From contig NZ_CP063458.1 in the NCBI RefSeq assembly GCF_015169395.1, positions 496,001-560,000 of the forward strand: a stretch of 64,000 bases of DNA, given 5' to 3'. Under the pieces are notes generated by a model. That model made no database searches, was not told the DNA's origin, and worked only from the letters and a program-made list of their open reading frames with translations. The translations under genes were made by a program, and so were the position numbers. Every line of letters begins with the position of its first letter. The stretch's first letter is position 1. This document shows, piece after piece, positions 9,838 through 56,715 of this stretch. Source of the stretch: Humisphaera borealis. Its GTDB lineage: Bacteria; Planctomycetota; Phycisphaerae; Tepidisphaerales; Tepidisphaeraceae.

Positions 9838-9861
9838 CTCTCACGCGGGCTGTCTCGCAGT

Positions 9862-35318: not shown

Positions 35319-35440
35319 AACAAAAGCCCACTCGCCGCTACACAGAGGAGGATACCGTCATTAGCATCCACGAGATTCGACTCGCTTTCCAGAAGGCGGG
35401 GACCTGTGTTGATTTGGACATCGATTTCGGCGACGAACTA

Positions 35441-36366: not shown

Positions 36367-36369
36367 TAG
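35531..36369 (+). CDS. IS5-family transposase (two frames joined by -1 frameshift)
   Basis: A GGAGG site lies 5 bases before the ATG. Frame 1 (YEITDDQWALLKDLFP, GMLWILRSGAPWRDLPERYG, DLWLVDGTNIRA with the first catalytic Asp) runs to an A7 run at 35867-35873. There a -1 slip gives KKKHPLDTLEPDDH, then SRGGWGSKLHLVTDGKG, QLAGDKGYSYEST (second Asp) and YRKRSRIEQAVGWLKECRR with the catalytic Glu. The DDE set is complete. Slippage on A runs is the known expression mode of this IS group, so it is probably functional rather than broken. Confidence 0.88.
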
Positions 36370-37294: not shown

Positions 37295-37509
37295 CGCCGG
37301 AAACTCCGACCGCAGGCGCTGAGGGCGCGCCGGATGGTGTCGGCGTTCTCGAGCCCGCGCGCCGTCATGGGAACGGCACGGAAGGAGTCGCTCGACTTCA
37401 ACCGCTTGCCAAAATCCCTGTCGCCCCACCTCACTGCTGACTCTCGAGCAACGCCCAGCGTTTCAATCGTCGTCAGCGCGATCTGACCTACGTTGTTGGA
37501 TGACATCAA
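37291..37509 (-). pseudogene. Fragment of C1 (papain-like) peptidase
   Basis: 72 residues that match the middle of the intact peptidase at 58145-59191. NVGQIALTTIETLGV aligns with NAAQIALATVVKFGV, and RDFGKRLKSSDSFRAVPMTA with KDLAKRAKLNDVFRAVPLTA. The catalytic Cys region before it and the His/Asn region after it are missing, so this is a remnant. It ends in an overlap with the SprT-like start and abuts an oppositely oriented ARPP-1-like fragment, which points to a recombination join. Confidence 0.75.
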
Positions 37510-38196: not shown

Positions 38197-41100
38197 ATGC
38201 CGGACGATCTCATTTCCGCGACAAGTTCCGCAACTCCTGGCTCCGTAACGGGAGTGTGCGTCAGGATGTTGCTTGGTCATCATCTTGAGCCCGCTTCCGG
38301 TCAAACCTTCGGCGCCTCAGTGACTGAGTTCGCCGCAGTCACACAACTCTCCGTCGGCGACGACCCGGTGCTGATGGGCCCCATGCAGGTATCGATCGGC
38401 GGATGTACAGCACCTTCGCCATTCAACGCCATGCCAGGCACCTGCTATGGTTGCGGACAGGTCTCGCCCGCCGCAGGTGAACTGCTTCGAGCACCTATGC
38501 CGGTTCTTCGGATAGGGAACCAAGGGCATTGTGCCGGTGTGGCCATTAGCAATGTGTGGCCACACCCGCCCATCCCCGTAATGTGCGAGCTGAAAATCTG
38601 CCGATCTGGACAACGCGCCACAGGAGGCGCTCCGCCACCGGCTGCAGTTCCTCAAGTCGCCCATGGAACTGTTGGAGCGGGTGAAGCTGCAACGAATGGA
38701 CAGAGCGAGTTTAAGCTCAAGGTGTCGTGGCTCGATGCGCCGGCAAACGGTCTCCGAGTTTTGGCACGCCCGACGAAAGGCGAGGCGGCCCAAGGAGTTA
38801 GGAACCTGATTCTTGACGAGAAGGGCTGCGTCACGTTCCGTATGCCGAATAGAGAGTGCGTCGTCCAATTGATCGACGTCCTTCCTGAGCAGATCCATGA
38901 GCAATCCGCGGCCACTGTCTCGGAAGACAGATTACCTTGCCTGAATTACACGGTGAAGAAGGGTGACACCCTGTGGTCGATCGGCCAACGGTTCGGGACT
39001 TCCTGGGAGAAGATTTGGAATCATGAGAAAAACGGAAAACTGAAGAGTGACCGGCATAGCGATCCAAAACGTCTTCAAGAGAACGACGCCCTGGTTATTC
39101 CGCAACTTCAACGAGCGACCCTAAAGTTGAATGCCAAGACGGAAAACCATGTGAGGCTCGTACCACTGCTTCCGCACATCGACAGTCATTGCCACGTCGT
39201 TGCAGCATCGCAGTATGAGCCGGTCTTGGGCGGATCGGACCAACAAGAGCTGGCAGCCTACGACGAAGTCGTCCTCGTATACAAAGACGGCGTCGCGGTG
39301 CGGTGGCCCGCACCGGTTACTGTGGATGTCCGCCGTACTGGCACGGATCCGGGCGAGCAGCCGACGTGGGATAGGACGGATGTTGACGTCCAAAGTGTCG
39401 TTCGACTTTCGATTAGCTCAAGCAACCGCACGCCGCCGCAGCCTGCAATCTATGAGTCGGAAACTGAATGGACGGTGTCCAAGCCTGGATCGGACGGCGT
39501 GGCTTCGGGTGTAGCGATTTTTTTGGCGAACGGCTCGTTGACGCAAGTACCACTTCCGACGTGTCTTCGGCGCAACGGGCAATTGCCGATCTGCCTGCGA
39601 GATGGACAGGAGCTTAGGTTTCAGGAAAACCTTCCCCGGCTTGTGCAGCGGCATCATTTCGGATTCGCCGCGTGGATCAACACCCCAGCAGGGTTCCGAG
39701 GCGCTGTCAGCATGGTGGCCGTTGGTAAGTTCCTCGTCCACAACGTACTTGAAAGTGAGGCGACAAACGCTTGGTATCTGCTCAGGGGGCTGGCAGGAAA
39801 CTCGACGACCGATCGGCTCAACGATCGGGCAAAGGCCATCGTGCCCCTCGTTCTCGATCTTAGCCAGACTCCGATTCGAAAATCCCTTCACGCCTGGGTG
39901 CTGGATGTAATTGCTGGCTCACACGTCGAGGCCGAAGTTCGCGACGACAGTCAGGATTACCCGCGGCGCGAGTACATCTGGTTCAAACAGGACGTCAACA
40001 GAATCGTCACCGTCGTAGAACGTATCGCCCACAAAGGGCGCGGTGAGGTTTTGCCGTTTGCCCCATTTGATGCGCGGAACCCGGAGGCAATGAAGATCGT
40101 CAAGGATTGTGTCCCGCAACGGGGTTTTGTCGGAATCAAGATGTACACACGTTGCGGTTGGTTGCCCACGGAGAATGCCAAGCTCTTCGGGGATCCTCGT
40201 GGGGCAATCGTAGACCGACAGGCTAAAGAGCTTCTTGAGTTCGCCATCAAAAGCGACCTGCCGATCACGAATCACCATTCTCCGGGGGGATGGCCCCCGA
40301 CCTCAGAAGAAGTTGGGCCTGCATGCTTTTGGTCGAGTCTGAACTTCGGATTTCCGCGTCTGAACAAGCCAAATCCGCAAGCCAGTTTCGAGGACGCCGC
40401 CCGATGGCTGGTTGAAGCGTTCTGTGTCGCGACGGCGAGGTACTGCGAGTACGTTCAGACACTGGCCTCGCCTTACATCTGGATCTCGACCCTTAACGAG
40501 AATACGAGACTCCGGCTCAACTTGGCCCACTTTGGAACTGCTGGTGCCGCTTGGTGCCGCTATCAAAGCAGGCAGTCGGCAAGTATTGAGGTGAGCGAGT
40601 CCACGTCCACCTATCTCCGCTACAACCCTGTCATCGTCAGCGGGGAGAGATTTGCCGGTTCGCAGTTCAAGGCCGCTGTCCTGCTACGCCTGACGCGCGC
40701 ATCAGTTTCTGAACTGGAGTGGTATTTGACAGACGACGAGTTCGGTTGGGCCCGCAGCCAGTTACAGCGTCTAACACAAGGGGATCCCACCGTGCCACTC
40801 CTCTGGGAGCTCAAAGAGCCTGAGCACCTCAACCAAGTGTTGCAACTACCCCATTGGCAGGATTGGCTATCCCAGTGGAAAAACCGATTTCCATTGGACT
40901 GGTGTTCCAAGATACTGGACTTGATGACGAATTTTCCCAACGTCTTCGCCGATCTATCCTATTTCGTCGGCGACTTGGAACGAGAGGATGGCGATGTGCT
41001 CCGCAGGCTGCTTTCCGAAATTGCAAAACACAAAACCTGGCAGCATCGCGTCCTTGCCGGTACCGATTGGCCCCTGATCGAGAAAGACGGCGTTGGCGTA

Positions 41101-41355
41101 TCCGAAAGCTGGCTCGCTTTTCGTCAAGCCGTCGATGAGGCGGCCATTCTCGCGAAGGTATCGGCCGACTCGCTGTGGCAAAAACTCACGTGCGAGAACC
41201 CACTCAGGTTTCTCAACTTGAAGACGCGGATGGACGCGCTGGAGAAATTCTACAATGAGCCCCTTGGCCAAGACAGGGAAGGTGGAGATCCCGTCTTCTG
41301 GTGGCCGGCAGTCCGCCTTTATTACGACCGGGCGAAGGATAACCCCGGACATTGA
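38197..41355 (+). CDS. LysM / amidohydrolase-2 protein with Gly-rich N-terminal domain
   Basis: The start is set at ATG 38197, 6 bases after GGAG, giving about 1052 residues. About 1-145: a Gly/Cys/Pro-rich beta region (PVLMGPMQVSIGGCTAPSPF, VLRIGNQGHCAGV) that faintly resembles PAAR-type tip proteins. About 250-305: a LysM domain (YTVKKGDTLWSIGQRFGTSW), which binds peptidoglycan or chitin sugars. From about 325 on: HIDSHCH with the HxH metal pair, RGFVGIKMYTRCGW, ITNHHSPGG and VLAGTDWPL with the catalytic Asp. These are hallmarks of amidohydrolase-2 TIM barrels, here interrupted by a ~250-residue insert. No signal peptide is seen, so export would need a dedicated apparatus. First gene of the operon and a candidate cargo or tip protein. 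Confidence 0.75.
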   Translation: MPDDLISATSSATPGSVTGVCVRMLLGHHLEPASGQTFGASVTEFAAVTQLSVGDDPVLMGPMQVSIGGCTAPSPFNAMPGTCYGCGQVSPAAGELLRAPMPVLRIGNQGHCAGVAISNVWPHPPIPVMCELKICRSGQRATGGAPPPAAVPQVAHGTVGAGEAATNGQSEFKLKVSWLDAPANGLRVLARPTKGEAAQGVRNLILDEKGCVTFRMPNRECVVQLIDVLPEQIHEQSAATVSEDRLPCLNYTVKKGDTLWSIGQRFGTSWEKIWNHEKNGKLKSDRHSDPKRLQENDALVIPQLQRATLKLNAKTENHVRLVPLLPHIDSHCHVVAASQYEPVLGGSDQQELAAYDEVVLVYKDGVAVRWPAPVTVDVRRTGTDPGEQPTWDRTDVDVQSVVRLSISSSNRTPPQPAIYESETEWTVSKPGSDGVASGVAIFLANGSLTQVPLPTCLRRNGQLPICLRDGQELRFQENLPRLVQRHHFGFAAWINTPAGFRGAVSMVAVGKFLVHNVLESEATNAWYLLRGLAGNSTTDRLNDRAKAIVPLVLDLSQTPIRKSLHAWVLDVIAGSHVEAEVRDDSQDYPRREYIWFKQDVNRIVTVVERIAHKGRGEVLPFAPFDARNPEAMKIVKDCVPQRGFVGIKMYTRCGWLPTENAKLFGDPRGAIVDRQAKELLEFAIKSDLPITNHHSPGGWPPTSEEVGPACFWSSLNFGFPRLNKPNPQASFEDAARWLVEAFCVATARYCEYVQTLASPYIWISTLNENTRLRLNLAHFGTAGAAWCRYQSRQSASIEVSESTSTYLRYNPVIVSGERFAGSQFKAAVLLRLTRASVSELEWYLTDDEFGWARSQLQRLTQGDPTVPLLWELKEPEHLNQVLQLPHWQDWLSQWKNRFPLDWCSKILDLMTNFPNVFADLSYFVGDLEREDGDVLRRLLSEIAKHKTWQHRVLAGTDWPLIEKDGVGVSESWLAFRQAVDEAAILAKVSADSLWQKLTCENPLRFLNLKTRMDALEKFYNEPLGQDREGGDPVFWWPAVRLYYDRAKDNPGH

Positions 41356-41407
41356 AATGCCCCAACCCGATATGTAGACTGCCCGCAAGATTTCTACACG
41401 CCATCGC

Positions 41408-43396
41408 ATGGGTGAGCAGCACGCTTTTTTTCCTGACGACTCGACTCTGGCCGTCCTGCGGTCCGTCCGTACTCAGGCGGATAAGGGCGACCAGTACCTG
41501 ACCGACTTGCTCCGTTTGCTGGCCGGCGCTTGTGCCGACTTAGCACCGGCCCTGAAGTTATTCCCGCCTACGGCAACGCTGCGCCCTGTCCAAATCACCA
41601 CTGGCGTGAAGTTCCCGCTGCAGTCGCTTCTCAAAGCGGCTGAGAGCGTTCGTCAGGCTGCGGGTGGCAAAACAATCACGTGCTCGTCCCTCTTCTACAT
41701 TGCCGTATCATCCGAAAACTACTGCGGCGATGAAATCGACAGTCAGACCGTTCGCGTTCTCGCCAAACAGGGCTACGGGCTCGCCGGGTTGAGCTTCGTC
41801 GACAAGCCGCCCCCGCCGGTTCCGGTTGGTTTGGGAGACGACCTGACCGCGATGTCCTACGGCTGGGAAGCATCACCGCTCGGTCTCGCGGATGACGCCG
41901 CCGTACCCCGCTACTTGCAAGTCCTGATGGTCCAACTCTTCGGCGGATACTACACGCCGGTGCTGGTTGCCGAGCCTGGCGTCGGCAAGACCACGCTCGC
42001 CATGCAGATTGCCTACATGCTCCGCAGCGGCGACGGGCGGGTAAACTCGTCGATGCATCAGCTCCGGGTCGTCGGGGTATCGCGATCGCACTTAATGTCC
42101 GGCACTGCTGACAGGGGGCAGCTTGAGGAACGCGTTCGGCAACTCGTCGATCTTGCCCATCGAGACAATGGCTCCATCGTGTTTTTCGACGAGATGCACT
42201 CGATGTTCGATTCGAGCCGCGAGGGCACGATCATCTCCAACATCCTGAAGCCGCCCATGGCGGCCGGGCAGTTGCGATGTTTCGGCGCAACCACCCGCGA
42301 AGAATACGATCGCATCTTGTCATCTGATCCCGCACTGGCCGATCGGCTCTCGCTGATCCCGTTGCCCGAACCCACACGCGACGCGGTCGTCGCAAATTTT
42401 AAGCGATCCCCTCAGTCCGTCCTGAAACGCACCGGCCAGACGCAGCCTCCCCGCTTAACCGACGACGCCATTCAGGCAGCCGTCGACCTGACCATCCGTT
42501 ATCTGCCACTGCAGCGACTTCCGCGCAAGGCCGCGAACCTCATCCGCACGGCGGCAGCCGAGTTGCATTATGACAACCCTAAGGCGACACAACTAACCGG
42601 AAACGATGTTCGCCGAACGCTCGAAAAAGCGCTCTCCATGCCGGAAGGCCACCTGACCGCGAGCGTTTCCAAACGAGCAGGCCGCCTTCGCGAGTTGATC
42701 TGCATGGACGTAAAGGGACATGATGAGGCTGTGAGCCTCATTGCCAACTACATCATGGCAGGTGAAGACGCGCGAGCGCGCGGCGCACTTCAGCACGGAC
42801 CGATCGCGTCCATTTTCCTCGTCGGGCCCTCAGGCGTAGGCAAACGTACGCTCGCCTGGTCAATTGCCCGCCATCACTTTGCCAATGGCGGGGCCGAGCG
42901 CGACGTGATCTCGGAGATCGACGTCGATGGGTTTGATGGCGAGACCGGCATCAATCGCTTGCGTGGTGCGCCGCCCGGCTATGTCGGATATGAGGAAACG
43001 CGGACCAGCATCTACAGTGATGTCCGCGCCTCCGCCCGCCGACTTGTGCTCATTCGCGGCGTCGACCGCTCCAAGGGGCTAGCCGCACTGCTGCGTCCCA
43101 TCCTCGAAGAGGGAACCGGTGCAGACGGTCGCGGCAGGCCCGTGTCGTTTGCCGGCTGTGTCCTGATTCTGACTGCCGAGTCCGATCAGCAGGGCGACGC
43201 CGCCGCTCTTCGTGAGTCTGTAGATCTGAAACTGGACCTCCAGCTAGTCGAACCACTGGGTCTCGCGGAGATCGCAGCGGAAATGTCTTCCCAAAGCAGC
43301 CTTAACTCGACCACCGCATCGGAGATAACGGCCGCAGCAAAAAGCCCGAAAGACATCGTTCGCGCGATCAGGTTGGCTTCGCTACGTATCCACTAG
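41408..43396 (+). CDS. ClpB/ClpV-like double AAA+ ATPase
   Basis: 662 residues, shorter than usual ClpB or ClpV (about 850-900). An N-terminal ~180-residue domain is followed by D1 with Walker A EPGVGKTTLA and Walker B SIVFFDEMHSMFDSS, the helical region KAANLIRTAAAELHYD, then D2 with Walker A GPSGVGKRTLA and the pore-loop segment RGAPPGYVGYEE. The D2 Walker B position reads RRLVLIRGVDRS, without the Asp-Glu pair, so D2 probably binds but does not hydrolyse ATP. There is no coiled-coil M domain of ClpB length. Family role: threading of protein substrates, including disassembly of contracted sheaths in type VI secretion. Here it is probably the energy source of the operon's machine. Confidence 0.85.
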   Translation: MGEQHAFFPDDSTLAVLRSVRTQADKGDQYLTDLLRLLAGACADLAPALKLFPPTATLRPVQITTGVKFPLQSLLKAAESVRQAAGGKTITCSSLFYIAVSSENYCGDEIDSQTVRVLAKQGYGLAGLSFVDKPPPPVPVGLGDDLTAMSYGWEASPLGLADDAAVPRYLQVLMVQLFGGYYTPVLVAEPGVGKTTLAMQIAYMLRSGDGRVNSSMHQLRVVGVSRSHLMSGTADRGQLEERVRQLVDLAHRDNGSIVFFDEMHSMFDSSREGTIISNILKPPMAAGQLRCFGATTREEYDRILSSDPALADRLSLIPLPEPTRDAVVANFKRSPQSVLKRTGQTQPPRLTDDAIQAAVDLTIRYLPLQRLPRKAANLIRTAAAELHYDNPKATQLTGNDVRRTLEKALSMPEGHLTASVSKRAGRLRELICMDVKGHDEAVSLIANYIMAGEDARARGALQHGPIASIFLVGPSGVGKRTLAWSIARHHFANGGAERDVISEIDVDGFDGETGINRLRGAPPGYVGYEETRTSIYSDVRASARRLVLIRGVDRSKGLAALLRPILEEGTGADGRGRPVSFAGCVLILTAESDQQGDAAALRESVDLKLDLQLVEPLGLAEIAAEMSSQSSLNSTTASEITAAAKSPKDIVRAIRLASLRIH

Positions 43397-43417
43397 GCAT
43401 CATTAACGGATAACGCA

Positions 43418-46400
43418 ATGGCAGAAAATAAAGTGCACAAGACAGCAATGCTCGTTGGCGACTTTGGCGGGAACAATGAGAAGGTGAAGGACAAATTCAT
43501 TGTCTTCTCGTACGCGGGACGTCCCAATTTAGAATACGACGCCTTTGTTAACCATTACGACATCCAGACTACCGAGCTTGGGCCACTTAATTCTGGCAAT
43601 CCATTCTTCAATTTCTTTAAGCCAATCGGTCCACCGAATGGCGCGCAGCCTGTCAATGCCTCCCAGATGGCGGAGGAGGTTGTTAGCGGGTTTGATCAAT
43701 TGGCGAAAAGCATTGCATCGACACTGTCTCAGGTTGACGAAAAACAAAGCAAAGCTACAGCGAAAGAAGAGAATCTGAAGGTCAATGGCCGCCCCTCCAA
43801 CAAACCGTTTATCAATGTGTTTGACGCGGTCATTGGTGGCAAGGACAACATTGGTTGGGAAAAATTTGAGACAGCCACGAAGCTGGGCCTAGAAACCCTT
43901 CGATCGGAAGGCAAAACAGGGAACATATCGTACAGCACGTTGAGTGAAAAACGCAGTCTCTTCCGCCCATTACTGTGGCGCAACTTCTTCGATAGACTTA
44001 ATAGCGCCGCAGAAGAGGCCGCCAAAGCATTTATGACTCAATGCAGAAAGTCGCAGATCGATAACGTCAAAATCGATCTGGGCGACAGAGGACGTTGGAA
44101 GCGATTCGTAACCAGTCTCGCAACGCGGAACGACGTTCTAGACCCGGCAGACCTCGGCACTGCTGTAGGTGTAGACCACCCTGCGACACAAGAATTCCAA
44201 GCTTGGCTCAAGAACTTTGACGGTCTTGCAAAAGCTACGGTCATCGGAAAGGCAGAGGTGCATGAAGCTTTGAGCGTCGCAACAGAACAGGCAAAAACAG
44301 ATTGGAAAGCCGGCTCTGGTAAAAGGCCATTCCCGGCTGTTTTCTCGGGAATCCTCTCAGAGTACGCGCGTGCTCGGTCCGGCGGTGCGATGCTCAGTGA
44401 GGACCTCATGGTTGATGTCCTGCATAATGCGATTCTTGGTATGATTGCTGGCACATCGGTTTCCGCTCAGGATTATTTCGCGAAAGCTCGTGCTGAGGGT
44501 CGCAAAGACTTCGCCAATGAATCTGAGGATAATTTTCGTGATAATATCAACGGATATGCTAAAAAACTAATCGAATTGCTCAAAGACGACAAGGCAATTC
44601 AGGATGCTGAATCCATAGCTTGTGTTGCTGCCCATCTCGCCTGGTTGGCGACCGTCGAACCCACAAAGCGAAGCGAGATTACTTCTTGGCTGCTTCTGGC
44701 ACAGGATCCAAACTGCAATTCAAAGCTATCTAATGCTACCGCCGCTCCAGCAGGGGATTTCGCAACGCAGGTCGAAGCCTGGTTTGTGGAGGCGAGACAG
44801 CGGCGGCACGACAGAGGACATACTGGCTCCAAGGACGACTCGATGAGTTCGGCGAGTTCAACCACTGGCACCAGTTCTTCGGGTGTTGATCGAAACACAG
44901 AGACCGTTCGAGAATCTGAAGGGTCGCAGAGTTCAGATTCGCGGAAGGCCGGCACGGGAGACTCTGACGACGGGAAATCGAACCAGGGTTCAGTGGGCAA
45001 TGAATCCGAGCACGTCTCGACACCTTCTCCTCTGCCTGGGCAACAGCAGAACGAGCACGGTGAGCCCGTCGATGTGAAGGGGGGGGCTCCGGTTGAATCC
45101 AAGATCGAAAGCAGTCACGAGGATAAGACTTCAAAGGTCGACAAAAAGGTTGTGGAGACTGGCAAGGAACTGGATGCACTTGATAGTTTGTTGAAATCGG
45201 TATCCATCAATCTGAATGGCCAGCTACCGAAATTGCATACGCTTCTTCCGTTATTCCATACATCGATTCATAAATCATTCACCATCCTCCTTTCGCAGAA
45301 GGACTTGCCGGACGCCCAGAAACTGGCTCGAGAAAGCGCATTTCAGTATATCCACGCCGTGATGCTTATTCGCCAGGGCTTGCAGTTCGGTGATCCTGAC
45401 TCGGCAATCCTGCGATGGATCTTCGAAATACGGCAACACCAAGGTGTAGATCAAGTCCTGAAGAATGTGCCGGTGACGGAGTTTATTGATCTTGACAGCC
45501 TCGTAGTCCAGCGGAACGCCATGGACGACGCGTACACTGCTGCTATTGGTGATTCGATTCCATTGCTAAGCAAGTTATACGGTGTCGAATGCTTGATGCA
45601 GTCATTGAACAAGGATGGCTATCGCCTAGTTGTTTGGAACGGGAATTCAGCTACGGCTGTCGCGCGTCTTGCGAGTATCACTGCGATGAATCCAGGACCG
45701 CCCTGCGGCGATTCAGTGCCGCTTTGCGTATATTTTGCTGACGAGCCCGACACCGTTACAGAAGCCTTACTCAGTCAGCCTACTAAGAATCGATTTCCAC
45801 CGTGCCTGCTAGACGCAGGTCCTGATTGGGTGAAAGGAAGACCCTGGCTTTCGACACTTCCGGACATTGAACAGATTCCTTGCCTGTCGCTATGTGGTCC
45901 GGGTGTACGTCTTCGTGGATTGACCGACGATGTCAATGAGGGTTTGAAGGCAAATAATGGCAGTCCGTCGTCACCGCTGATACCCGCTGGCTTCTTGGTT
46001 CTCGCCGCTGCAATGAACGGCACGGAAGTCGTCTCAGCGGGCGACTACGATGTTCACGTGCTACCGACAACCCAATTTGTAGGGACTGGACCACAGGAGC
46101 AGGGGGCCGTCAGGTTTAATCTGACGACGGTGGCGGGGGCCTTGTTAAAAGCCGGGCTACTCGGCGGTATTAAAAAGGTGTTGGCGTCAGATTCTAGCCA
46201 GTTCGGAGGCGATATCCTCGCGTGGCTGGAAAGGTGCCAGATCACCGGTATCACCGATCGGCCGACGTATTGCCCGGCCGAGTGGAAGTTTGCCGTCCCT
46301 GGCGAATCGAAGATGGTAGTCCTTTGTAATGACTCGAAGTCGACGATGGCCCTGACTGCGACTCCGGGTATCTATGTTCACCGAGTAAACGCCTACTATG

Positions 46401-46420: not shown

Positions 46421-46485
46421 TTGGATGGAGTCTGATGTGTCGGAGTCGATATCAGTAGGGTCCACGCGAGGCAAAGGAGGCAAGC

Positions 46486-47367: not shown

Positions 47368-47382
47368 CCGTAGGGAGTTGTC

Positions 47383-48648
47383 TTGGCCGGTGTCTCATCC
47401 ATCACGACGACTGTCGCAGGCGTGACGATGCACTTCCATGCGGTAACGCGCATTGAGGCCGTCGGTGCCCGCTTGCGGTGGAAGCTCCATACACGCGATC
47501 CCAGGATCGCTGGCATTCGTGCCGGTGCGCAGGCGGGTACACCCGCCGATCCGTCGCCGAGACTCGTTGGACCGATCGAGGTCGTGCTGGCCGGTGGTCA
47601 GAAGCTAAGCATCAACGGTCCGTTTAGAATCGCGGATGCTCCTCGTAGGACAACATACCCCGATGAACTGATGCTTCAGGTGGAGCAGACCGTTGAGACC
47701 CCAGCAAGTCTAGTTCCGGGACGTGCGGCTTATTGTGTGCCCGCCAACGGTATTGAAGGCTTTCTGAATACGGACCCGTTTTCCGGATCCTTGCAGCAGA
47801 TCAATCAAGCAGTTCGTAAGAAGATCCAGGGGATGTTGGAAGGCATTGGAGAAACGGTCGTACTGAGAGTCGACCGCTCCCCGCTAGATCTTGCGGCATG
47901 GCTGGCATGGTCGGCGTCGTATCTGGGCGAGGACCACTTCTGGGTGATCGGAAGAGCCGGCACGAACTGGAGCCTGGTCAAGGACGACAACCAGCAGGCA
48001 TTCGACATGACTGCCGATTGGCGCCCGACTTATGAGACAGAAATCTGTTGCAAAGAGCTCCCAACGCCATATGCACGGAGGGCAGGTTTGGTCGAGGTCT
48101 ACCAAAGGGTGTCCGAGGTGACCCTGGATGAAGCGACACAGTTATTGACAAAAGCATTTCTCCCGAAGCGGGCAAACTTCGCGGGGAACCACCGGTGGAT
48201 CGTCCGGCGACGAGACACCTGGGCAACCGGGCCAGTCGGCTGGGAAAGCCTAATCGACATTGCCGATGCACCACCAGAGCCTGTGTGGCAGACGCCGGAC
48301 CTGGCACCTATGGGGTATCTGCGAGGTAAGGTTGCCAAGTCTTGGACGAGCGGTGTATCCGTTCAATGTACGATGGATGGGTGCAACGATCTTTTTCCCG
48401 CAAGACTCACGAGTTTTGACGCAGGGACCGGCAACGCCTTCGGGTGGCAATGGGTTCCCAGTGAGGGCAACACACTCTGCCTGGACCCCGATTGGTCGCT
48501 CACTGGTATGCCGTTGATCCGATACGCCCAGCGTGATGTTGAAGTACCTGCTCCATACGCAATGGCCTTGCCGACCGGAAAGCAATGGTCCGGCAAGACG
48601 GGGATGCGGAAGATGACGCTCTCTGATCGGGGGATGCGCGTTGATTAA
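47383..48648 (+). CDS. Unknown 421-residue protein with OB-fold-like C-terminal part
   Basis: The start is TTG, 5 bases after AGGGAG. N-terminal beta-rich segments (GVTMHFHAVTRIEAVGARL, IEVVLAGGQKLSINGPFRI) are followed by a helical middle and a C-terminal block with YLRGKVAKSW, SVQCTMDGCNDLFPARL and FGWQWVPSEGNTLCL. The last order (small beta barrel then a GW..VP.EGN turn) is reminiscent of the gp5/VgrG OB domain in spike proteins. The similarity is by eye only. The stop overlaps the next gene by 8 bases. Confidence 0.6.
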   Translation: MAGVSSITTTVAGVTMHFHAVTRIEAVGARLRWKLHTRDPRIAGIRAGAQAGTPADPSPRLVGPIEVVLAGGQKLSINGPFRIADAPRRTTYPDELMLQVEQTVETPASLVPGRAAYCVPANGIEGFLNTDPFSGSLQQINQAVRKKIQGMLEGIGETVVLRVDRSPLDLAAWLAWSASYLGEDHFWVIGRAGTNWSLVKDDNQQAFDMTADWRPTYETEICCKELPTPYARRAGLVEVYQRVSEVTLDEATQLLTKAFLPKRANFAGNHRWIVRRRDTWATGPVGWESLIDIADAPPEPVWQTPDLAPMGYLRGKVAKSWTSGVSVQCTMDGCNDLFPARLTSFDAGTGNAFGWQWVPSEGNTLCLDPDWSLTGMPLIRYAQRDVEVPAPYAMALPTGKQWSGKTGMRKMTLSDRGMRVD

Positions 48649-49663
48649 GCCAATGTGGGACATTCAGCTCGATTGCACGCTTCTTAACGCCCAGAATAAA
48701 GGCGCTATTGATTGTATTAATGACGGTGACTACGGACTACCAACCGTTACAAAGCAGAACGTATCCAGCGAAGTGGCTTTAGCCGCGATGCGCCATGATT
48801 CGCAACCGCTTCTCTCAATGACAGTGCGTACCGCGTCGCTAGAGCAAGACAGTTATTTCAGCGACGCTTGGGACAAGTTCAGGAACAACATCTGGAACAA
48901 TGCTCGCAGTAGTGAATATGTTCCTCCGCTACTGCGTTTCTCTCGCTGGTGCGACGACCCCGCCAAGAGTCTGATTGTCATCGGCGGATCGGTAGGATTC
49001 GACTGCGACTCGGATGACGTAAGGTTCTGCGTCCCAGATTACGCCGTCGGAACCATTGAGCGCTGGCTAGCCGATCAGTTGAATTCAAGCCGCGTGGTCT
49101 ACTCGAGGTCAGTGTTTCCGATGGCTGGGTGGCGGTCTCCCCGATTTGCCCTCGAGTGGTCTCCGTACTACGTTTACCACCGCTTGATCGACAGTAAGCA
49201 CGACGCGATCGAATGTCTTGAGAGTCATCGCGAGCGTGATCCGCTGCGTGCACTATTAGCATGGACGGAAGTGCGGTACTCGGACGGTGTCAGCGTTCAC
49301 GATAATGTGCTTCGCACCCTCTTCGCCGGAACGGTCCTCTGCCTGCCGGCGCTGCTCTGGTGGAAACAACGATTCGCAAAGAGTCATATTGTGCCAAAAT
49401 CATCCGAAGCGGTCGCTGCCGTAATGCAAATGCTGCTTCAATTTCAAGGTGTCCAGAAGAAGAATGCAGAATGGTACTTGTCAAACCTGCGAAAGATCGG
49501 GCTTCAGAGCAGGGGGTTAATGCCGGAAGGTGACTTGCTACACGCTCATGAAGTGGACGACGAAGATCTGCTGACCGCGCTGCGGGCACTCATTCCGCCA
49601 AAGCAGTTGGTCACCGGATTCCTGCTGGACGTCAGCGGCTTGGATAATGCGATGCTCCACTGA
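48641..49663 (+). CDS. Unknown 340-residue soluble protein
   Basis: No family recognised. The start is TTG 48641, overlapping the previous stop by 8 bases; ATG 48653 is an alternative. It contains a Trp-rich middle (FSDAWDKFRNNIWNNARSS, SPRFALEWSPYYVYHRL) and a helical C-terminal half (SSEAVAAVMQMLLQFQGVQK). No signal peptide. The context suggests a structural or adaptor part of the operon's complex. A 155-base gap follows, the longest within the operon, so an internal promoter is possible there. Confidence 0.6.
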   Translation: MIKPMWDIQLDCTLLNAQNKGAIDCINDGDYGLPTVTKQNVSSEVALAAMRHDSQPLLSMTVRTASLEQDSYFSDAWDKFRNNIWNNARSSEYVPPLLRFSRWCDDPAKSLIVIGGSVGFDCDSDDVRFCVPDYAVGTIERWLADQLNSSRVVYSRSVFPMAGWRSPRFALEWSPYYVYHRLIDSKHDAIECLESHRERDPLRALLAWTEVRYSDGVSVHDNVLRTLFAGTVLCLPALLWWKQRFAKSHIVPKSSEAVAAVMQMLLQFQGVQKKNAEWYLSNLRKIGLQSRGLMPEGDLLHAHEVDDEDLLTALRALIPPKQLVTGFLLDVSGLDNAMLH

Positions 49664-49818
49664 AAACGTCGGCAGCGACAGGAGCGTGGGACGGTTGGTT
49701 GCATTGCGAGAGTGGACCCATTGATAACGAATAAAGGGCTTCCGCCCAGCCCGTCGCGGTACTAATTGGAGTCTGAGGGCCGACGAACACAGCCGACGCT
49801 ATCCGGCAGGCGCCAAGT

Positions 49819-51045
49819 ATGGACCAGAAGTTGACATCGACAAATGTGATCGCTGGATCCGATCCTGCGGCTGGACGTGGCCAACTGCGGCATGTTTGGC
49901 GACCGATACGCTTCGTTTGGCTTGCAGCAGTCAGCGCATCTTTTCTTGGATGCTTGCACATATACCGCGAGATCAACTGTTCGCCACCTTACGTTCTGCA
50001 TCAGGAAATACTTCAGGATGCGCGCGATTGGTTCATAAAAATGGCAGCATTCCTTCAATCACATTGGATAGATTTGGCCGTCTACATCTGGACGATCATT
50101 CTTTGCTTGACTTTCTGGGTCAAGGCGGACCCGGACGAACCAAAGAAGAAATGGCGACGCGCAATCAAGGTCGCAGCCGCTGTCTGTATTGGCGGGTGGG
50201 CGATCAAGGCGGCTGCGCTCGTTGGTGGTCTGGGTCTGATCAATGCGATGCGGTGGAACATGGGCAAGCCCAATGCCGCCGTAAAGGACTCTACGGATGC
50301 CTTCGCGGAACTTACTACGCGGCCGTCGGCGACCCCTGCAACAAAAGCATCCACTCAGCCTACTACGCGAACATCAGCAATCGCGTCCGCAGATCCCTCT
50401 ACGCCAACCGCAGTCCGGGCCATTAAGGGGAACGGAGACCGAGTTTCAGGAGCATACGTCACTTTTCTGAAATCCTCCTTTCTTGGCGACGGTGTTTCCA
50501 CGCCCGAAGACCATGCGCTCGCGGTTCTGCGTGGTGTTTACCCGGAACAAGCGCAGTGGGATGTACTGCTTTCCCGAAAGCTCGCTGATAACCCCGACGA
50601 TGTTAAGACCGCCGTGGAGGATATGCGTGAACGCCTACGTTATATCTATGTATTGCAGGTTCTGCTCGAAGTTCCCATCGGCAGATCGTATGGTCTACAC
50701 CAACTCATTTATACGATAGGCATCTTCTGTTTCTATGGCCTGCGAGTTCGTGACTTAAAGCACGCCGACGTGTATCGACGTCGATTAGATATGTGCCGGC
50801 CCCTCATCAGTCAGCTGGGACTACTAGGTACGGTCTTGGGAATGAGTCTATTCATGTTGCGCCAGGGTACCCCGGATCCGATGCGCGAGGCCCTTGGAGG
50901 CACCGCGATCTCAACATCGCAAGCTGCGGCGTTTTTCCTCGGCGTAAACAAGACCCTTATTGCCATTGCCGTTGGTGCCGTGGTAAGTTGGTACGCAATG
51001 AGTCGTGACGATACGTGGGCTGTCAAAGTATGGCCGCGGGAATGA
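49819..51045 (+). CDS. MotA/TolQ/ExbB-like channel protein
   Basis: 408 residues. The C-terminal segment LISQLGLLGTVLGMSLFML followed 35 residues later by NKTLIAIAVGAVVSWYAM matches the LGLLGT.xG and final helix pattern of MotA/TolQ/ExbB proton-channel proteins. Three more hydrophobic segments lie at about 30-50, 83-101 and 114-140. A Thr/Ala/Ser-rich spacer (about 165-200) separates the halves. Usual family members are ~220-240 residues, so this one carries a large extra N-terminal part. Known role of the family: a pentameric stator converting ion flow into motion with an ExbD/MotB partner; two candidate partners are encoded downstream. Confidence 0.72.
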   Translation: MDQKLTSTNVIAGSDPAAGRGQLRHVWRPIRFVWLAAVSASFLGCLHIYREINCSPPYVLHQEILQDARDWFIKMAAFLQSHWIDLAVYIWTIILCLTFWVKADPDEPKKKWRRAIKVAAAVCIGGWAIKAAALVGGLGLINAMRWNMGKPNAAVKDSTDAFAELTTRPSATPATKASTQPTTRTSAIASADPSTPTAVRAIKGNGDRVSGAYVTFLKSSFLGDGVSTPEDHALAVLRGVYPEQAQWDVLLSRKLADNPDDVKTAVEDMRERLRYIYVLQVLLEVPIGRSYGLHQLIYTIGIFCFYGLRVRDLKHADVYRRRLDMCRPLISQLGLLGTVLGMSLFMLRQGTPDPMREALGGTAISTSQAAAFFLGVNKTLIAIAVGAVVSWYAMSRDDTWAVKVWPRE

Positions 51046-51087
51046 TGGTACGTGATCGCTGGTGATTGATTTTGCGAAGGTAACGCT

Positions 51088-53202
51088 ATGGCGAGCGGAC
51101 TCTTGAAGCGCGTCTCTTGGCTGCGTGTCGCGGTCGTGCTGACATTTTCCGTTGTTGTTCTAGTCGTATTCTGGGTCATCCTATCCCCAAACGATCCCAT
51201 CGCACCGGAGTCATCTAAAGACTGGGCGATGAAGGTCTGTAAGGCTCTGGGGTGGGAACCGAATGAGAAGACGATTCGTGTCGGGTCCGTGGGGCAGACC
51301 CCCATTGTCGACGTCGCCAGCAGATCGATAGATGTTCCTCCAGGAAATGTACGCTTGCCCATGCCTTTGCCAATCAAAGACGGAAGTTCAGGGCGCATAG
51401 TAGCCGTCGACTGGGTTGTTGCCGGGCTAGAGAGTCGGGATGGGGGCACCAGATTAACGGTGAAAGCGGATGTGGCAGTGATTGCATTCGCGATCCTTGG
51501 CCTCACATTCGTATGGCTGATCTGCCATTTTCTATCTATCTTATCCTTGAAGAAGTGTGGGATCAGCGTCCCGTTGCGAGCCATAGTCAATCGCGTACTG
51601 ATCTCCCTCGTGCCGACGGGGCTTGCAATTGCAATTCTTACTGGTCATTTCGTTCCATCAAGATCATGGACGGCCGAAACCGCGTACCGCCGCCAGTTCG
51701 TCACGGATAGAGTCAGCATGGTGCCGCATCTAGAGCCCCCAGCGACCCAAGGGACACCCCCACTCGATGAACTGCTACGTACACTCAATAGCCTCAGCGC
51801 AGCCAAGGACCACCATGTCATCCAAGCCATACTTCTTCCTGACGAATTAGGAGCACTGGCGGCTGACTACAAGGAGAGAATTCAGGATATTGTGAGGGCA
51901 AACGATATCAGACTTAGAGTTGATTCGAGTTCCGAGACGGTTCAGAGAATCGCCTATACCCTCCGACCCGACTGCAATTGTGGCTGGTTAGGTTCTATGC
52001 TTCAGCTGAAAGCCGAGCAGACGACGGACGAACTGCAGTTGAATTCGATCCAAGTCCGGCACTGGGTCGTTTCACGCAAAGTCGACTTGGTGAAATGGTT
52101 GGCCACAGCGAAAACATATCGCACCACTGGGCCCGGCTATCTGTTTAAACAGATTCCGCCGAATGAACCTGCACTGGCGCTAACCGGTCCTCAGTTTGAC
52201 GCGCTATTTGAAAGCAACAAATCGCCGAGTGACGACAGCCGCGTAGAGCTGCTCGCCAGGTTGTGCTGGACCGCCGATCCCACGCTTCCGGCGATCCTCG
52301 CAAACTCGGCAACTTTGCAGGAGAAAGATTGTAGCAGGATAAAGGCAGTGCTTAAGAGACAGTTCGACCCTGCCGTAAGTACTACGGGTTCATATGCTCA
52401 ACTCTACGATTACTGTTATGCGATGTACATTCTATCGGAACTCTCCCATCGGCTAGGCCGAACATGCCCCCCCCAATTAAAAGTACTGATATCCGACGAG
52501 CTATCGAGGTGCCTCAACGCGCTGGGGGGATGGACGAACAACTTCAGCAACTGGGATACGTCGTCCACTTCGCGATTTACCGGCAGTGACAGGAGCCTGC
52601 AATCAGAGCTCCTTTGGATGCTCGCCACCTTTCGGTCGAGTGGCGACGCTAGTATAAATCGTGCATGCTCATCACTTTACGTCCACCTTCTAGCGAACTG
52701 CACAGACAAGCCACAGAGTTCAACCTATGCCGAGGGCGCATATTGGGGCGCTACCCTCATTGCCTTGAACAAGAATGGTCTTCATCCCAATATTATCAAG
52801 CTCTGGCAGTTGCCGACAACAAATCCGTCGACCACAGGAGCAACTGCGGCAAACGACATGTTGAATCAAATTCTGCTCAATCTCAAGCGGCCGGTAAATA
52901 TGAGTAACATGCACAGTACTTACCAGCTCTTGTTTGCGGCTCGCTTCGCTAAGCTTTGCGGGCCGACGCAGAGTACTGCGGTTGCGCAGTTGCTCGCTAA
53001 TGTCCTTGCGTTTAACGGACACTGCTTGCCGCCCGGCACAAGCAGTAGCTTGTCGTACTTCGCCTCCAAGGAAGATCCAGCTAACGATGGTCGGCGTCTA
53101 GCATACTTTTTTAGCCTCATCGCAGCTGCCGAGCTACGAGATTATATCGATACCAATTTCCCAAATCTACGTCCTCCGACCTCGAATCCAACGAGTCCCT
53201 GA
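51088..53202 (+). CDS. Large membrane protein of unknown function
   Basis: 704 residues. Hydrophobic helices at about 13-35 (VAVVLTFSVVVLVVFWVIL), 130-150 (VAVIAFAILGLTFVWLICHF) and 165-185 (ISLVPTGLAIAILTGHF), then ~500 soluble residues that look helical and repeat-like (LLARLCWTADPTLPAILANS, MYILSELSHRLGRTCPPQL). I know no family for it. Set between the ExbB-like and ExbD-like genes, it could be the scaffold that joins the motor to the rest. AAGGT lies 8 bases before the ATG. Confidence 0.6.
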   Translation: MASGLLKRVSWLRVAVVLTFSVVVLVVFWVILSPNDPIAPESSKDWAMKVCKALGWEPNEKTIRVGSVGQTPIVDVASRSIDVPPGNVRLPMPLPIKDGSSGRIVAVDWVVAGLESRDGGTRLTVKADVAVIAFAILGLTFVWLICHFLSILSLKKCGISVPLRAIVNRVLISLVPTGLAIAILTGHFVPSRSWTAETAYRRQFVTDRVSMVPHLEPPATQGTPPLDELLRTLNSLSAAKDHHVIQAILLPDELGALAADYKERIQDIVRANDIRLRVDSSSETVQRIAYTLRPDCNCGWLGSMLQLKAEQTTDELQLNSIQVRHWVVSRKVDLVKWLATAKTYRTTGPGYLFKQIPPNEPALALTGPQFDALFESNKSPSDDSRVELLARLCWTADPTLPAILANSATLQEKDCSRIKAVLKRQFDPAVSTTGSYAQLYDYCYAMYILSELSHRLGRTCPPQLKVLISDELSRCLNALGGWTNNFSNWDTSSTSRFTGSDRSLQSELLWMLATFRSSGDASINRACSSLYVHLLANCTDKPQSSTYAEGAYWGATLIALNKNGLHPNIIKLWQLPTTNPSTTGATAANDMLNQILLNLKRPVNMSNMHSTYQLLFAARFAKLCGPTQSTAVAQLLANVLAFNGHCLPPGTSSSLSYFASKEDPANDGRRLAYFFSLIAAAELRDYIDTNFPNLRPPTSNPTSP

Positions 53203-53232
53203 GAATCGAACCTCTCTTGCCGGACGGTTGCC

Positions 53233-54444
53233 ATGAGCCGAACCTCATTCGTAGATGCGTTTTTTAATATCCTCTTCTTCCTGCTTGTCGCTGCCTGTAG
53301 CAGTATAAGCTGCACAAGCGCCAGTAGAGGACGAACGGAGGCGGGTCTCGTAGTTGTCTACGTTCCGGATGGCGATAGGCGGGACTACATGGTAGAGCTG
53401 CATAGACGAGGCAAGCAAGCGAAAGCGGCTACCCGACCGACCGATGTTGTCATCGCTAGGTTTGATCAAGCGGGAAGGCCGATAGACGACTTGCCGAGAA
53501 CTGAAGCAGCGCCCAGGAAACAGCAAATTCGCATTCGCACAAAGCTTCCAGAAGAAGAGTTTGCAGTTGTAGTTATCCCTGCGTCGCCGGCAGTAGGGAA
53601 GATACCAAGTCCCGAGAATCGCGAAGCTGCGGCGCAGTTCGTGCAGCGTTGTTTTGCTGAACGGCAAGATCATCAGCATCCATCCAATCCACCACTGGGC
53701 AGAGCGGCAGACGCAATGAGTCGCGGCATTTTCGGAAGCTTAAAGGGTGGCCAGCCCACGATTAACGAATCAATTCGCACCATGCTCCAGGAGGTAGAGT
53801 TGGCGAAGCGTTCATTCAGCGGTTCGGCAATAAGGGCCTCAGTTGATAAGTTTGTGTCGTTTGATGACACGATCGTCGCCAGTGCGGGGGTTGATATTTT
53901 CAGAGCCACTAACTCGGGCCCGCTTTCTTTTCAGGAGGGATTCTTTGATCAGGCTGCCTTGATCGAGCGGCTTAATCAGATCGCGCGACAGCGTACGGTT
54001 CCCTCAAATGCCGCTTTGGATCCATGGACCCACAGTAGCGAGGCCGTCCAGACAGCCATCCAGGCGTCGCGATCCAACGCTCTTCTTTATTTGCAGATAA
54101 CTCACCCCAGTACCGTGTTTGGCAGGCCACTTATTTGGTATGACTTTACGGCCGACGACGGCAAGCCGGTCGGGCTGGATATGGGAAGTCCAAAAGATGC
54201 AACGATTAGATTGGATGCTGTCGTTGGAGAGTTGGGCGACTCATCGCCGACTGGGAAAGCAGAAGCAGAGAATAAATACGGTCCATACTTCATAGATGCC
54301 CTGCTACATGTTGTCAATCCAAAGCCAAGCATCGTGGTGCTCGATCCGCGAGTAGGCGAGCGGGCCGCTACCAATTCCACTAAGGAGACGGGGTTGGTTC
54401 AGTTGCAAAGAGGCTTTCAGTTAATCGTTCCAAAGGCCGAATAG
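53233..54444 (+). CDS. ExbD/TolR-like single-helix protein, long periplasmic domain
   Basis: 403 residues. The N-terminus SFVDAFFNILFFLLVAAC has the ExbD/MotB-type helix with an Asp at its start, the residue that takes the proton in that family. The short cytoplasmic start and single helix fit. The remaining ~375 residues are predicted periplasmic and end VQLQRGFQLIVPKAE. They contain no peptidoglycan-binding OmpA motif that I can see. A Cys pair follows the helix, so a lipoprotein signal is an alternative reading. A plausible partner of the ExbB-like protein. Confidence 0.6.
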   Translation: MSRTSFVDAFFNILFFLLVAACSSISCTSASRGRTEAGLVVVYVPDGDRRDYMVELHRRGKQAKAATRPTDVVIARFDQAGRPIDDLPRTEAAPRKQQIRIRTKLPEEEFAVVVIPASPAVGKIPSPENREAAAQFVQRCFAERQDHQHPSNPPLGRAADAMSRGIFGSLKGGQPTINESIRTMLQEVELAKRSFSGSAIRASVDKFVSFDDTIVASAGVDIFRATNSGPLSFQEGFFDQAALIERLNQIARQRTVPSNAALDPWTHSSEAVQTAIQASRSNALLYLQITHPSTVFGRPLIWYDFTADDGKPVGLDMGSPKDATIRLDAVVGELGDSSPTGKAEAENKYGPYFIDALLHVVNPKPSIVVLDPRVGERAATNSTKETGLVQLQRGFQLIVPKAE

Positions 54445-54479
54445 CCCTAGTTTGTGATGGACTGAGGAGGATCAAGCTC

Positions 54480-55064
54480 ATGAAGTCGACTCGCGTGACC
54501 ACCTTCGTCGACATGCTTTGCGGCATTTCGCTTTTTCTTCTCGCAATTCTCATGACAAACTCCTTGACGCGAGTGACGCTTCGGGGGACAGGCTCCGAAT
54601 CGAGTGCGCGGCCTTGGGCATGTATCGAGATCATTCTTGAGCGGAGGCCCCCCGACATTTCGCCAGCTTCGCAGCCTAGTTCGCAGTTACCGGCCGAAGC
54701 CCAGCTTCGGGTGCTCGCAGCCGGGCTGCTTCCCGTGAACAGTGGAGTTTCTACTTCGATATTGGCACGCAATGCCAAGCAGCTGTCCCTGATCTTCTAT
54801 GTTCCGTCGCCCGATGAGAGTAAACCCGCAAATGTTGCGATTGCACTTGTCCAGGACTATGATTGGACGAGAGATTTTGTCCCGGTGGGGCTTGTCTTGT
54901 CCGGGGATCTTCGAGAGGTGCCTGAGATTGCGGTGGGTGACTTGAAGGATATTATTCATCGCGTGATGTCGCCAGAAAAGCAGTTCTCCAGCTGCACGCT
55001 TGGTATGGTTGTTCGATCGCCAAGTTCGGCAACATCTGCTCCTGCGACAGTTCCGGTGCGCTGA
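54480..55064 (+). CDS. Second ExbD/TolR-like single-helix protein
   Basis: 194 residues, nearer normal ExbD length (~140). TTFVDMLCGISLFLLAILMT mirrors the start of the preceding gene: Phe-Val-Asp then an aliphatic helix. The periplasmic part holds LSLIFYVPSPDESKPANVAI and CTLGMVVRS. A strong GAGGAGGA site lies upstream. Two ExbD-type proteins beside one ExbB-type protein also occur in known gliding/secretion and Tol-like motors, where the pair is asymmetric. Confidence 0.6.
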   Translation: MKSTRVTTFVDMLCGISLFLLAILMTNSLTRVTLRGTGSESSARPWACIEIILERRPPDISPASQPSSQLPAEAQLRVLAAGLLPVNSGVSTSILARNAKQLSLIFYVPSPDESKPANVAIALVQDYDWTRDFVPVGLVLSGDLREVPEIAVGDLKDIIHRVMSPEKQFSSCTLGMVVRSPSSATSAPATVPVR

Positions 55065-55092
55065 TTCAGATGGACCTATTTTCGGAGTGTTT

Positions 55093-55767
55093 ATGGTGGA
55101 GTTCGAACTACTGCAGGTTACGAAGGAGCATGATCCGAAGTGGGACGGGCTGGGAGGTATTAGAATTGTTTCCACTGAGTGGATAAATGCCGCTGACATG
55201 ACTTGGGAGGCTGTTATGCTTAATCAAACATTAGTTGCCAGGCAAGCCCTATGTCTTGTGGGATGCAAGGTTTCTACTGTTCAGAAATTGGATGAATGTG
55301 GAAAAGAGTATAGAAAGCAAGGCAGGGCGGCTTTGAGGACGATTAATGAGGGGAGTGTTGCCATTGTAGCTGGCCTACGCCTGGAAAGTCCCTGCCTGTT
55401 TGCACCCGTTGACGCACCGCTTTTATCCGATCCCCCTAAGGGCCTTACTGAAGCGCTATTGCCTCCCAACAATCCCGGCGATTGGAGGAGCGGATGGAAT
55501 GCGATCGTCAAAGATGTCTGTAGTCTCCAGATTGATCTCGACCTTCGCTTCGCAGAAACTCTTTTGCAAGCCAGTTCTTCGGTAGTCGATGCAGTGTTTG
55601 AACTGAAGAAAGCGTCCGCCATCCCGAGCCGCCTGGTTCTCTTGGAGCGCAAAGTCGCCGGGTGGTTGTTCTGCCGCTCGGAATATCGCGATTGGCTTCG
55701 TGGCCATCTTAAGATACTAGGCTGGTACTTGTCAGTTTATAGGAAAGCACCCATTGCGGCTCAATAG
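55093..55767 (+). CDS. Unknown 224-residue protein
   Basis: The start is set at ATG 55093, 5 bases after GGAG. The open frame extends upstream into the previous gene, but that part is not protein-like. No family recognised: MVEFELLQVTKEHDPKWDGL start, a helical C-terminal third (RFAETLLQASSSVVDAVFEL, YRDWLRGHLKILGWYLSVYR). No signal peptide. Short gaps on both sides place it in the operon. Confidence 0.55.
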   Translation: MVEFELLQVTKEHDPKWDGLGGIRIVSTEWINAADMTWEAVMLNQTLVARQALCLVGCKVSTVQKLDECGKEYRKQGRAALRTINEGSVAIVAGLRLESPCLFAPVDAPLLSDPPKGLTEALLPPNNPGDWRSGWNAIVKDVCSLQIDLDLRFAETLLQASSSVVDAVFELKKASAIPSRLVLLERKVAGWLFCRSEYRDWLRGHLKILGWYLSVYRKAPIAAQ

Positions 55768-55788
55768 ACTTGAGCTGAATCTTAGGTA

Positions 55789-56715
55789 GTGCTTGATCAC
55801 ATACTCGTTGTTGAGGACGTGGTTCGTGATACTGAAGATCGAGTTCAAACCGAGTTGAATTCGGTTGAGAGGACAATGAGGTCTTCCATGGCTTACCAAC
55901 CTCGCGATCGTGTCGATTCTGTGTCTGCAGAGGGCTGGCGACAATCGCAATTGTTTTCACTCAGGATTCAATGTGGACTGGACTATGGGGTCGCGAGTGC
56001 TAGGCGTATCGATAACGATCTGAGTATTTCGCTGTTCTGGCCTAGTGGACGATGGTCAGAGGTCTATCTGAGTCAGAATGAGGTCTGTAGCGTTGTTTGG
56101 CCGAACTACCCGAATGATGTATTTCCACGTACGAGCCTAGATGTGGCGTATTCTGACAGTACGCTTGAAGCCAAGTGGTATCGCGTCAGGGAAAGGAATC
56201 AGATTGAGAATGTTCTCACTGAACGGATCGCGCTAAAGTTCAAGGTTGTCGGTAATGTCGTTTTTTTGACAGAGGCTCCAGTTCTAAGTTGGCTGGCAGC
56301 TAGGACAGCGCTCAATAGCTTCAACGATAGTCTTGGGCGAAGTGAGGCCTTGTGTCGTGTCGGATTCCCGTCATGTGCAAAACTTCTGGCGTCCCTTGGG
56401 ATTTTCTCGGCTGCAGAGGAGCCTTCGAGGGACTGGTCTCTCTTGCAGGCTTGGGATGAAGTTATGAAGGCGTTTTCCCGTGAGGGGTTTGATCTGGCTG
56501 GAGTCCGTATCAACGATCCGAGCGCCGCATTGGCGAGCCTTGTCAAATCGCTAGAGGATAAGCTCTTCCCGATAGGGACACAGGTGCCGTTCAACGCGAC
56601 TTTAGCCGGCTTGTTCAATCTCGAGTCAATCGAGGTAATGAACGCGAGATCCCAGTGGGTCCAATACGGTCCGCAACCTCCTGCTGGCGATTTTTTGAGG
56701 ATGCGGAGAACCTGA
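55789..56715 (+). CDS. Unknown protein, last gene of the operon
   Basis: 308 codons from GTG 55789. ATGs at 55876 and 55888 are alternatives, and the latter (MAYQPRDRVDSVSAEGWRQS) looks the most protein-like start. The middle is beta-rich (DLSISLFWPSGRWSEVYL, KFKVVGNVVFLTEAPVLSWL); later sequence is helical. No family or motif recognised. The IS630-type element begins about 250 bases downstream, so this is the last gene of the run as seen here, and the operon may once have been longer. Confidence 0.55.
   Translation: MLDHILVVEDVVRDTEDRVQTELNSVERTMRSSMAYQPRDRVDSVSAEGWRQSQLFSLRIQCGLDYGVASARRIDNDLSISLFWPSGRWSEVYLSQNEVCSVVWPNYPNDVFPRTSLDVAYSDSTLEAKWYRVRERNQIENVLTERIALKFKVVGNVVFLTEAPVLSWLAARTALNSFNDSLGRSEALCRVGFPSCAKLLASLGIFSAAEEPSRDWSLLQAWDEVMKAFSREGFDLAGVRINDPSAALASLVKSLEDKLFPIGTQVPFNATLAGLFNLESIEVMNARSQWVQYGPQPPAGDFLRMRRT

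Follow-up and report, generated by a model that had tools for sequence, protein, structure and literature searches.

TsxE of Myxococcus xanthus is an effector of the type VI secretion system (T6SS) that is required for killing and is built of a LysM and an amidohydrolase-2 domain, and a relative of TsxE in Nannocystis additionally carries PAAR (PMC5801462). The same two-domain architecture was recognized in P1, the first protein encoded by a cluster of twelve genes (P1 to P12) at positions 38197-56715 of a 64,000-nucleotide stretch of the Humisphaera borealis genome, referred to as the window (contig NZ_CP063458.1, positions 496,001 to 560,000). Next to P1 the cluster encodes a Clp-like unfoldase (P2), a protein of 1000 residues (P3) and a set of ExbB- and ExbD-like membrane proteins (P7, P9 and P10). 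The operon is read here as a possible undescribed, self-contained and ion-driven delivery machine for P1, T6SS-like but with a different membrane part. This reading is held tentatively, at a little under even confidence. The twelve open reading frames (ORFs) are all intact, lie on the plus strand and are closely spaced, the intervals from P1 to P12 being 52, 21, 65, 15, -8, 155, 42, 30, 35, 28 and 21 bases. Gene number, strand, gaps and the single overlap were found exactly as described in the original prediction, which had been made from the sequence alone.

A LysM domain was identified at residues 250-275 of P1 (Pfam, 4.9e-9, above cut-off), in agreement with that prediction. The Amidohydro_2 match of P1 (Pfam, 2.8e-5) reached 24.5 bits and falls slightly below the cut-off of 26.4. 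The predicted list of parts was broadly right: LysM, double AAA+ module, ExbB-like protein and two Asp-bearing helices were recovered, with the amidohydrolase domain 2 bits short. The metal-binding motifs of the amidohydrolase-2 domain are intact, namely HxH (329-334), HHS, AHFG and GTDWP, with the ligands HxH, H, H and D. Neither a signal peptide nor a transmembrane (TM) segment was found in P1. The likeness to TsxE (PMC5801462) is one of domain architecture, compared by domains and not by direct sequence comparison, and P1 differs from TsxE in having an extra N-terminal domain and in adjoining a Clp gene and not vgrG. The extra domain is rich in Cys and His and PAAR-like by eye only; no PAAR, DUF4150 or DUF4280 match was obtained. 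The LysM block of P1 resembles that of another LysM protein, whose gene immediately follows vgrG in a T6SS locus from the same phylum (0/40 shuffles), and IWNH..N...R.DP..L...D.L.IP is common to both. A sequence search of the PDB with P1 returned LysM matches only, and its plasmid matches are lone amidohydrolases.

P2 contains two AAA+ modules (Pfam AAA, 3e-14; AAA_2, 6e-17). Comparison with the ClpB, ClpA and ClpV models gave values of 1e-58 to 1e-55, far under the equivalog cut-offs, and the score towards TIGR03345 (ClpV) was 187 bits against a cut-off of 885 bits, level with ClpA and ClpB. The motifs of the first module (D1) are intact. In 392 genomes of the phylum a single close relative of P2 was found (E 1e-72, residues 140-607), in G065, a distant genome that is 84% complete and fragmented. 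The second AAA module of this relative keeps Walker A, and EE replaces DE at its Walker B. The spacing of P2 is ClpA/ClpV-like, and the ClpB middle domain is absent from the match between the two proteins. In a phylogenetic tree they formed a long-branched clade of their own (100/99), separate from those of ClpB, ClpC and the sampled ClpV, and judged by this tree they are a separate Clp family.

Other Clp genes of the phylum were considered as relatives of P2 and were found to belong to other systems. A ClpA-like ATPase of about 750 residues, encoded after a small FHA protein, occurs in several genomes of the phylum (among them G016 and G058; L059 and L060). A large cluster on contig C201 of G589 (L145-L146), unrelated to the window system, encodes two divergent Clp-like ATPases, an FHA protein, a PP2C-like phosphatase and several proteins of 1300-1600 residues with zinc-ribbon-like CPxC motifs at their start.

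The gene after Clp in G065 encodes a homologue of P3 (phmmer, one-against-one, E 2e-4; 24-25% identity). The two proteins match best over residues 651-746 and have LSxLYGxExL and NGN in common. On this contig the order is Clp, P3 homologue and the start of a P4-like gene, the last recognized only by its position and by the resemblance GYRFAMVL/GFRIVLAY. A joined query of P4, P5, P6, P7, P9 and P12 identified an ExbB homologue on a different contig of the same genome (E 1e-8), whose reading frame is broken near the end and was read in pieces. It adjoins a possible P8-like gene, assigned tentatively, and two ExbD-like genes; the P9 counterpart carries CFLD and is directly followed by the start of the P10 counterpart (VSFLDLMTGFVGAFFLL). 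The counterparts of P4, P8, P9 and P10 were assigned by position and motif (for P9 a helix motif) and not by significant similarity. With G065, a distant genome, sharing both the Clp/P3/P4 order and the ExbB/ExbD/ExbD set, the grouping appears to go beyond chance, which bears out the earlier claim that the genes belong together. In the gene-neighbourhood survey proposed with it, the Clp-like and 1000-residue genes were adjacent in the second genome and the ExbB-like gene was on another contig.

No counterpart of P1, P5, P6 or P12 was found in the fragmented G065, and the full set was found in no other genome of the order, of the class sample or of the phylum sample. The cluster is very rare. 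A search with P3 of viral contigs, plasmids and 199 genomes of the phylum returned only P3 itself, and because the 199-genome search missed G065, single-sequence searches underestimate the number of relatives. An over-loosened motif scan of the genome contigs (GYVG[YF]x[DE][ST]) gave only ordinary ClpC-like proteins; the motif misses the G065 codons and the scan does not prove rarity there.

P7 is ExbB-like, as judged from its hydrophobic segments and the motif QLGLLGTVLG. The MotA_ExbB profile aligned the same region with a segment of the G065 homologue (E 0.025) and with P7 (E 4.3), in both cases below cut-off. The helix motif is F-V-D in P9 and P10 and F-L-D in both counterparts, so that Asp is present in four of four ExbD-like helices; none of these proteins matched an ExbD model. 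A multi-TM ExbB-like protein with GLLGT, together with two proteins that each have one TM and an Asp within the membrane, recalls ExbB/ExbD, TolQ/TolR, MotA/MotB and GldL/GldM. In contrast to such motors, the soluble parts in the cluster are unusually long and extremely divergent, the genes are accompanied by those for a Clp ATPase and P3, and no TonB, TolA or OmpA-like domain was found.

P3 consists of a helical N-terminal half, a disordered linker at about residues 480-590, a further helical part and an alpha/beta C-terminal part. For comparison with contractile sheaths, TssB and TssC profiles were built from T6SS loci of the phylum, including many divergent TssB-TssC fusions. The N-termini of P3 (KTAMLVGDFGG) and of its homologue (RVLIVGEFNG) match a strand of the TssB profile at the same profile positions, and the score of each was exceeded by none of 1086 unrelated ordinary N-termini. 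In the C-terminal half, P3 matches TssC only weakly; there the homologue scored better than 200 of 200 controls towards the LHHP..WRGL strand of TssC, whereas P3 alone did not. Comparison of the P3 family with the T6SS sheath profiles over the whole length was not significant. P3 is a candidate sheath protein, not an established one.

T6SS sheath genes are highly diverse in this phylum. TssB-TssC fusions of 500-650 residues were observed, as well as a 1326-residue protein with TssB and several TssC stretches and, in a protein of 2340 residues, a TssC domain. Several fused TssB-TssC copies occur alone, outside T6SS clusters.

The Pfam scan covered all twelve proteins, and P3-P12 gave nothing above the curated cut-off, as expected from the claim that most of the proteins have no known family. 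At E 0.01, P3-P12 had no match among the proteins scanned against PHROGs (all but P2 and P8), NCBIfam (all but P10 and P11) or PADLOC (all but P8 and P11). The sole PADLOC matches of the ten proteins scanned were generic AAA matches of P2. No supported match was obtained for P3, P4, P5 and P7 in a sequence search of the PDB.

The window genome is complete, a single contig of 7.19 Mb, and contains no TssC (Pfam PF05943) above cut-off. Of the 377 genomes of the phylum that were compared, 82 carry TssC; in G065 none was found. As P1 has no signal peptide and no TssC was found in either genome, P1 would need a carrier of its own, and for the same lack of TssC its transport by a canonical T6SS is unlikely. 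P3-P6 had no Pfam match to Hcp or VgrG, and hhalign comparisons (with a VgrG profile of four sequences) were not above controls. P5 had been suggested by eye to be a VgrG/OB-fold protein, and the VgrG comparison was negative. No Pfam match to the baseplate proteins TssE, TssF, TssG or TssK was obtained, and comparisons with TssE, TssF and TssG profiles were not above background; TssK and TssM-like parts were sought through the family libraries only. As the tests for TssC, Hcp and VgrG were all negative, the cluster was not classified as a T6SS. The claim that the cluster does not match type VI, Zorya or type IX sets holds at the level of family models, and is possibly too strong for type VI, given the short, significant TssB-like strand in the P3 family.

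If the operon encodes a delivery machine, P7 together with P9/P10 (and P8) would form an ExbB/ExbD-type ion-driven inner-membrane complex that anchors or energises the apparatus, and P3, possibly with P4-P6, would be its cytoplasmic or contractile part. The D1 ring of P2 would take apart spent P3, like ClpV on TssB/TssC. P1 would be the delivered, wall-directed effector, acting through its LysM and amidohydrolase domains, and P11 and P12 would be accessory, perhaps including an immunity protein. This is the preferred explanation because P1 shares the architecture of TsxE and its LysM block is like that of a vgrG-neighbour protein, because P2 is a ClpA/ClpV-spaced unfoldase adjoining P3 in two genomes, because both P3 homologues have TssB-like N-termini and the one in G065 also aligns to the WRGL strand of TssC better than controls, and because in both genomes one ExbB-like gene is found linked to two that are ExbD-like. 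The likeness to a T6SS lies in the Clp-type unfoldase, the TsxE-like effector architecture, the TssB-like strand of P3 and the many structural unknowns in the operon. The predicted delivery of a wall-active hydrolase gained independent support from the architecture of P1 and from the absence of canonical TssC in the window genome; delivery itself we infer.

Several observations weigh against a delivery machine of this kind. In contrast to a T6SS, no Hcp, VgrG, TssC, TssE, TssF or TssG is recognisable, none of the cluster proteins matching these at significance, and ExbB/ExbD-like membrane genes are found instead; to our knowledge, known T6SSs use no ExbB/ExbD. The Clp lies in its own clade and P2 was not grouped with ClpV, yet such a grouping was not rejected by the approximately unbiased (AU) test (p 0.43). 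The second module (D2) of P2 is degenerate, with a Walker A without Ser/Thr (GPSGVGKR) and a lost Walker B (LVLIRGVDRS), and the D2 ring looks catalytically dead. The TssB match of the P3 family spans about 20 residues and scored 22-26, compared to 55-127 for genuine left-out members. A full TssB-TssC fusion was suggested for P3 by a motif order convincing by eye, and was rejected: a chain test with five TssC motifs was negative for both homologues (63 and 388 of 500 shuffles were equal or better), and the HMMER scores were near background. After these tests, the sheath signal is reduced to the strand at the N-terminus and, in G065, the WRGL region. AlphaFold models of P5 (pLDDT 35) and P3 (pLDDT 31), for which one and two sequences were used, were uninterpretable. 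A new class of contractile or injecting machine, in which an ExbB/ExbD motor replaces the T6SS membrane complex, the giant P3 with its own Clp replaces TssB/TssC and a TsxE-like wall enzyme is delivered, is nevertheless possible, though less likely than not.

In the main rival explanation, ExbB/ExbD drives an envelope machine that does not contract and that works in the manner of Tol/Ton, Zorya or the type IX motor; Clp would remodel P3, and P1 would be exported or would remodel the cell's own wall. This is a serious though doubtful possibility. It fits the ExbB-like and two ExbD-like genes linked in two genomes, the lack of any tube, spike or TssC match, the mostly helical first half of P3 and a Clp that is not clearly ClpV, but it leaves unexplained a TsxE-type LysM-amidohydrolase-2 protein without signal peptide, a ClpV-spaced unfoldase and the resemblance to TssB at the N-termini of the two P3 homologues. 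The combination of a motor-like membrane pair with an effector is also shared with Zorya. A system for defence against phages, comprising a motor sensor like that of Zorya and a toxic effector, could be proposed on these grounds, since the cluster occupies a low-G+C island between insertion sequence (IS) elements, as is frequent for defence islands, and a helicase/PLD gene lies downstream. Such a system is improbable: for the ten proteins scanned, PADLOC matched only the generic AAA of P2 and no Zorya model (ZorA/ZorB with ZorC/D or ZorE), neither a nuclease nor a helicase nor an OmpA-like ZorB domain was found within the cluster, Clp and P3 are not part of Zorya, and the cluster is extremely rare whereas most defence systems are not. 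The resemblance of P1 to a T6SS effector and the lack of Walker motifs in D2 of P2 could also mean that the cluster is an island of accessory effectors belonging to a canonical T6SS, or what is left of a T6SS in decay. This explanation is largely contradicted by twelve intact ORFs, by a core that recurs in a distant genome and by the lack of canonical TssC in the complete genome and, as far as found, in G065, and is very improbable.

Should the preferred explanation of a delivery machine be true, the cluster would encode an injection-type machine outside the known classes of T6SS and extracellular contractile systems, and the first of this type to be coupled to a proton-motive stator. It would then have implications for the way in which such systems obtain their anchorage and energy, and for the origin of the T6SS. 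In the open-access literature, no account was found of ExbB/ExbD being linked to a Clp unfoldase in the context of injection, subscription papers being outside the search, and we know of no other case in which such an unfoldase is combined with an ExbB/ExbD motor. Even in an envelope machine, this pairing would stand out as a combination. The proteins without family, in a cluster with a recurring core, are a clear target for structure work.

Table 1. Genes of the cluster, flanking insertion elements (window positions) and diverse T6SS sheath loci of the phylum.
Feature	Position	Strand	Description
P1	38197..41355	+	Cys/His-rich N-terminal domain, LysM, amidohydrolase-2 domain; candidate delivered effector
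P2	41408..43396	+	Double AAA+ Clp-like unfoldase
P3	43418..46420	+	1000 residues; candidate TssB-TssC-like sheath or Clp substrate
P4	46486..47367	+	293 residues, no family; start of counterpart after P3 in G065
P5	47383..48648	+	421 residues, no family
P6	48641..49663	+	340 residues, no family; 8-base overlap with P5
P7	49819..51045	+	ExbB/TolQ/MotA-like; five hydrophobic segments; QLGLLGTVLG
P8	51088..53202	+	704-residue membrane protein; three TM segments; large helical C-terminal part
P9	53233..54444	+	ExbD-like; single N-terminal TM with Asp (SFVDAFFNILFFLL)
P10	54480..55064	+	Second ExbD-like protein; Asp in N-terminal TM (TTFVDMLCGISLFLL)
P11	55093..55767	+	About 224 residues, no family
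P12	55789..56715	+	308 residues, no family
IS5-type insertion sequence	35438..36369	+	Upstream; intact; 19-bp terminal inverted repeats
IS630-type transposase	57029..58071	+	Downstream; split over two overlapping ORFs
Sheath locus L178 (G330)	7994-11971		Diverse T6SS sheath locus
Sheath locus L200 (G372)	3936-10955		Diverse T6SS sheath locus
Sheath locus L183	9398-11137		Diverse T6SS sheath locus
Sheath locus L190	9411-11168		Diverse T6SS sheath locus
Sheath locus L203	7238-8788		Diverse T6SS sheath locus

The ORF of P11 is open from 55000, and the ATG at 55093 suits the spacing better and is most likely the start. The G+C content of the cluster is 55%, compared to about 61-62% in both flanks. 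Owing to this low G+C and to its position between two IS elements (Table 1), the cluster looks like a mobile island. An Rfam search of the window gave no match. Between the upstream element and the cluster, a truncated ARPP-1 domain was found at 37493-37969 (plus strand), covering positions 158-297 of 297 only and probably a leftover gene fragment. Downstream, a perfect 19-nucleotide inverted repeat with a 10-nucleotide loop (58088-58135) separates two convergent genes and is probably a bidirectional terminator. It is followed by a papain-family protease gene (58145-59218, minus strand) and by a gene for a protein with PLD-nuclease and SNF2-type helicase parts (60670-63750, plus strand); the latter gene appears to serve restriction or defence. 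On the upstream side, 32088-35318 (minus strand) encodes a 1076-residue fusion of an aldo/keto reductase, with a possible Fe-S motif, and a class III aminotransferase, and this gene is adjoined by a radical SAM gene.

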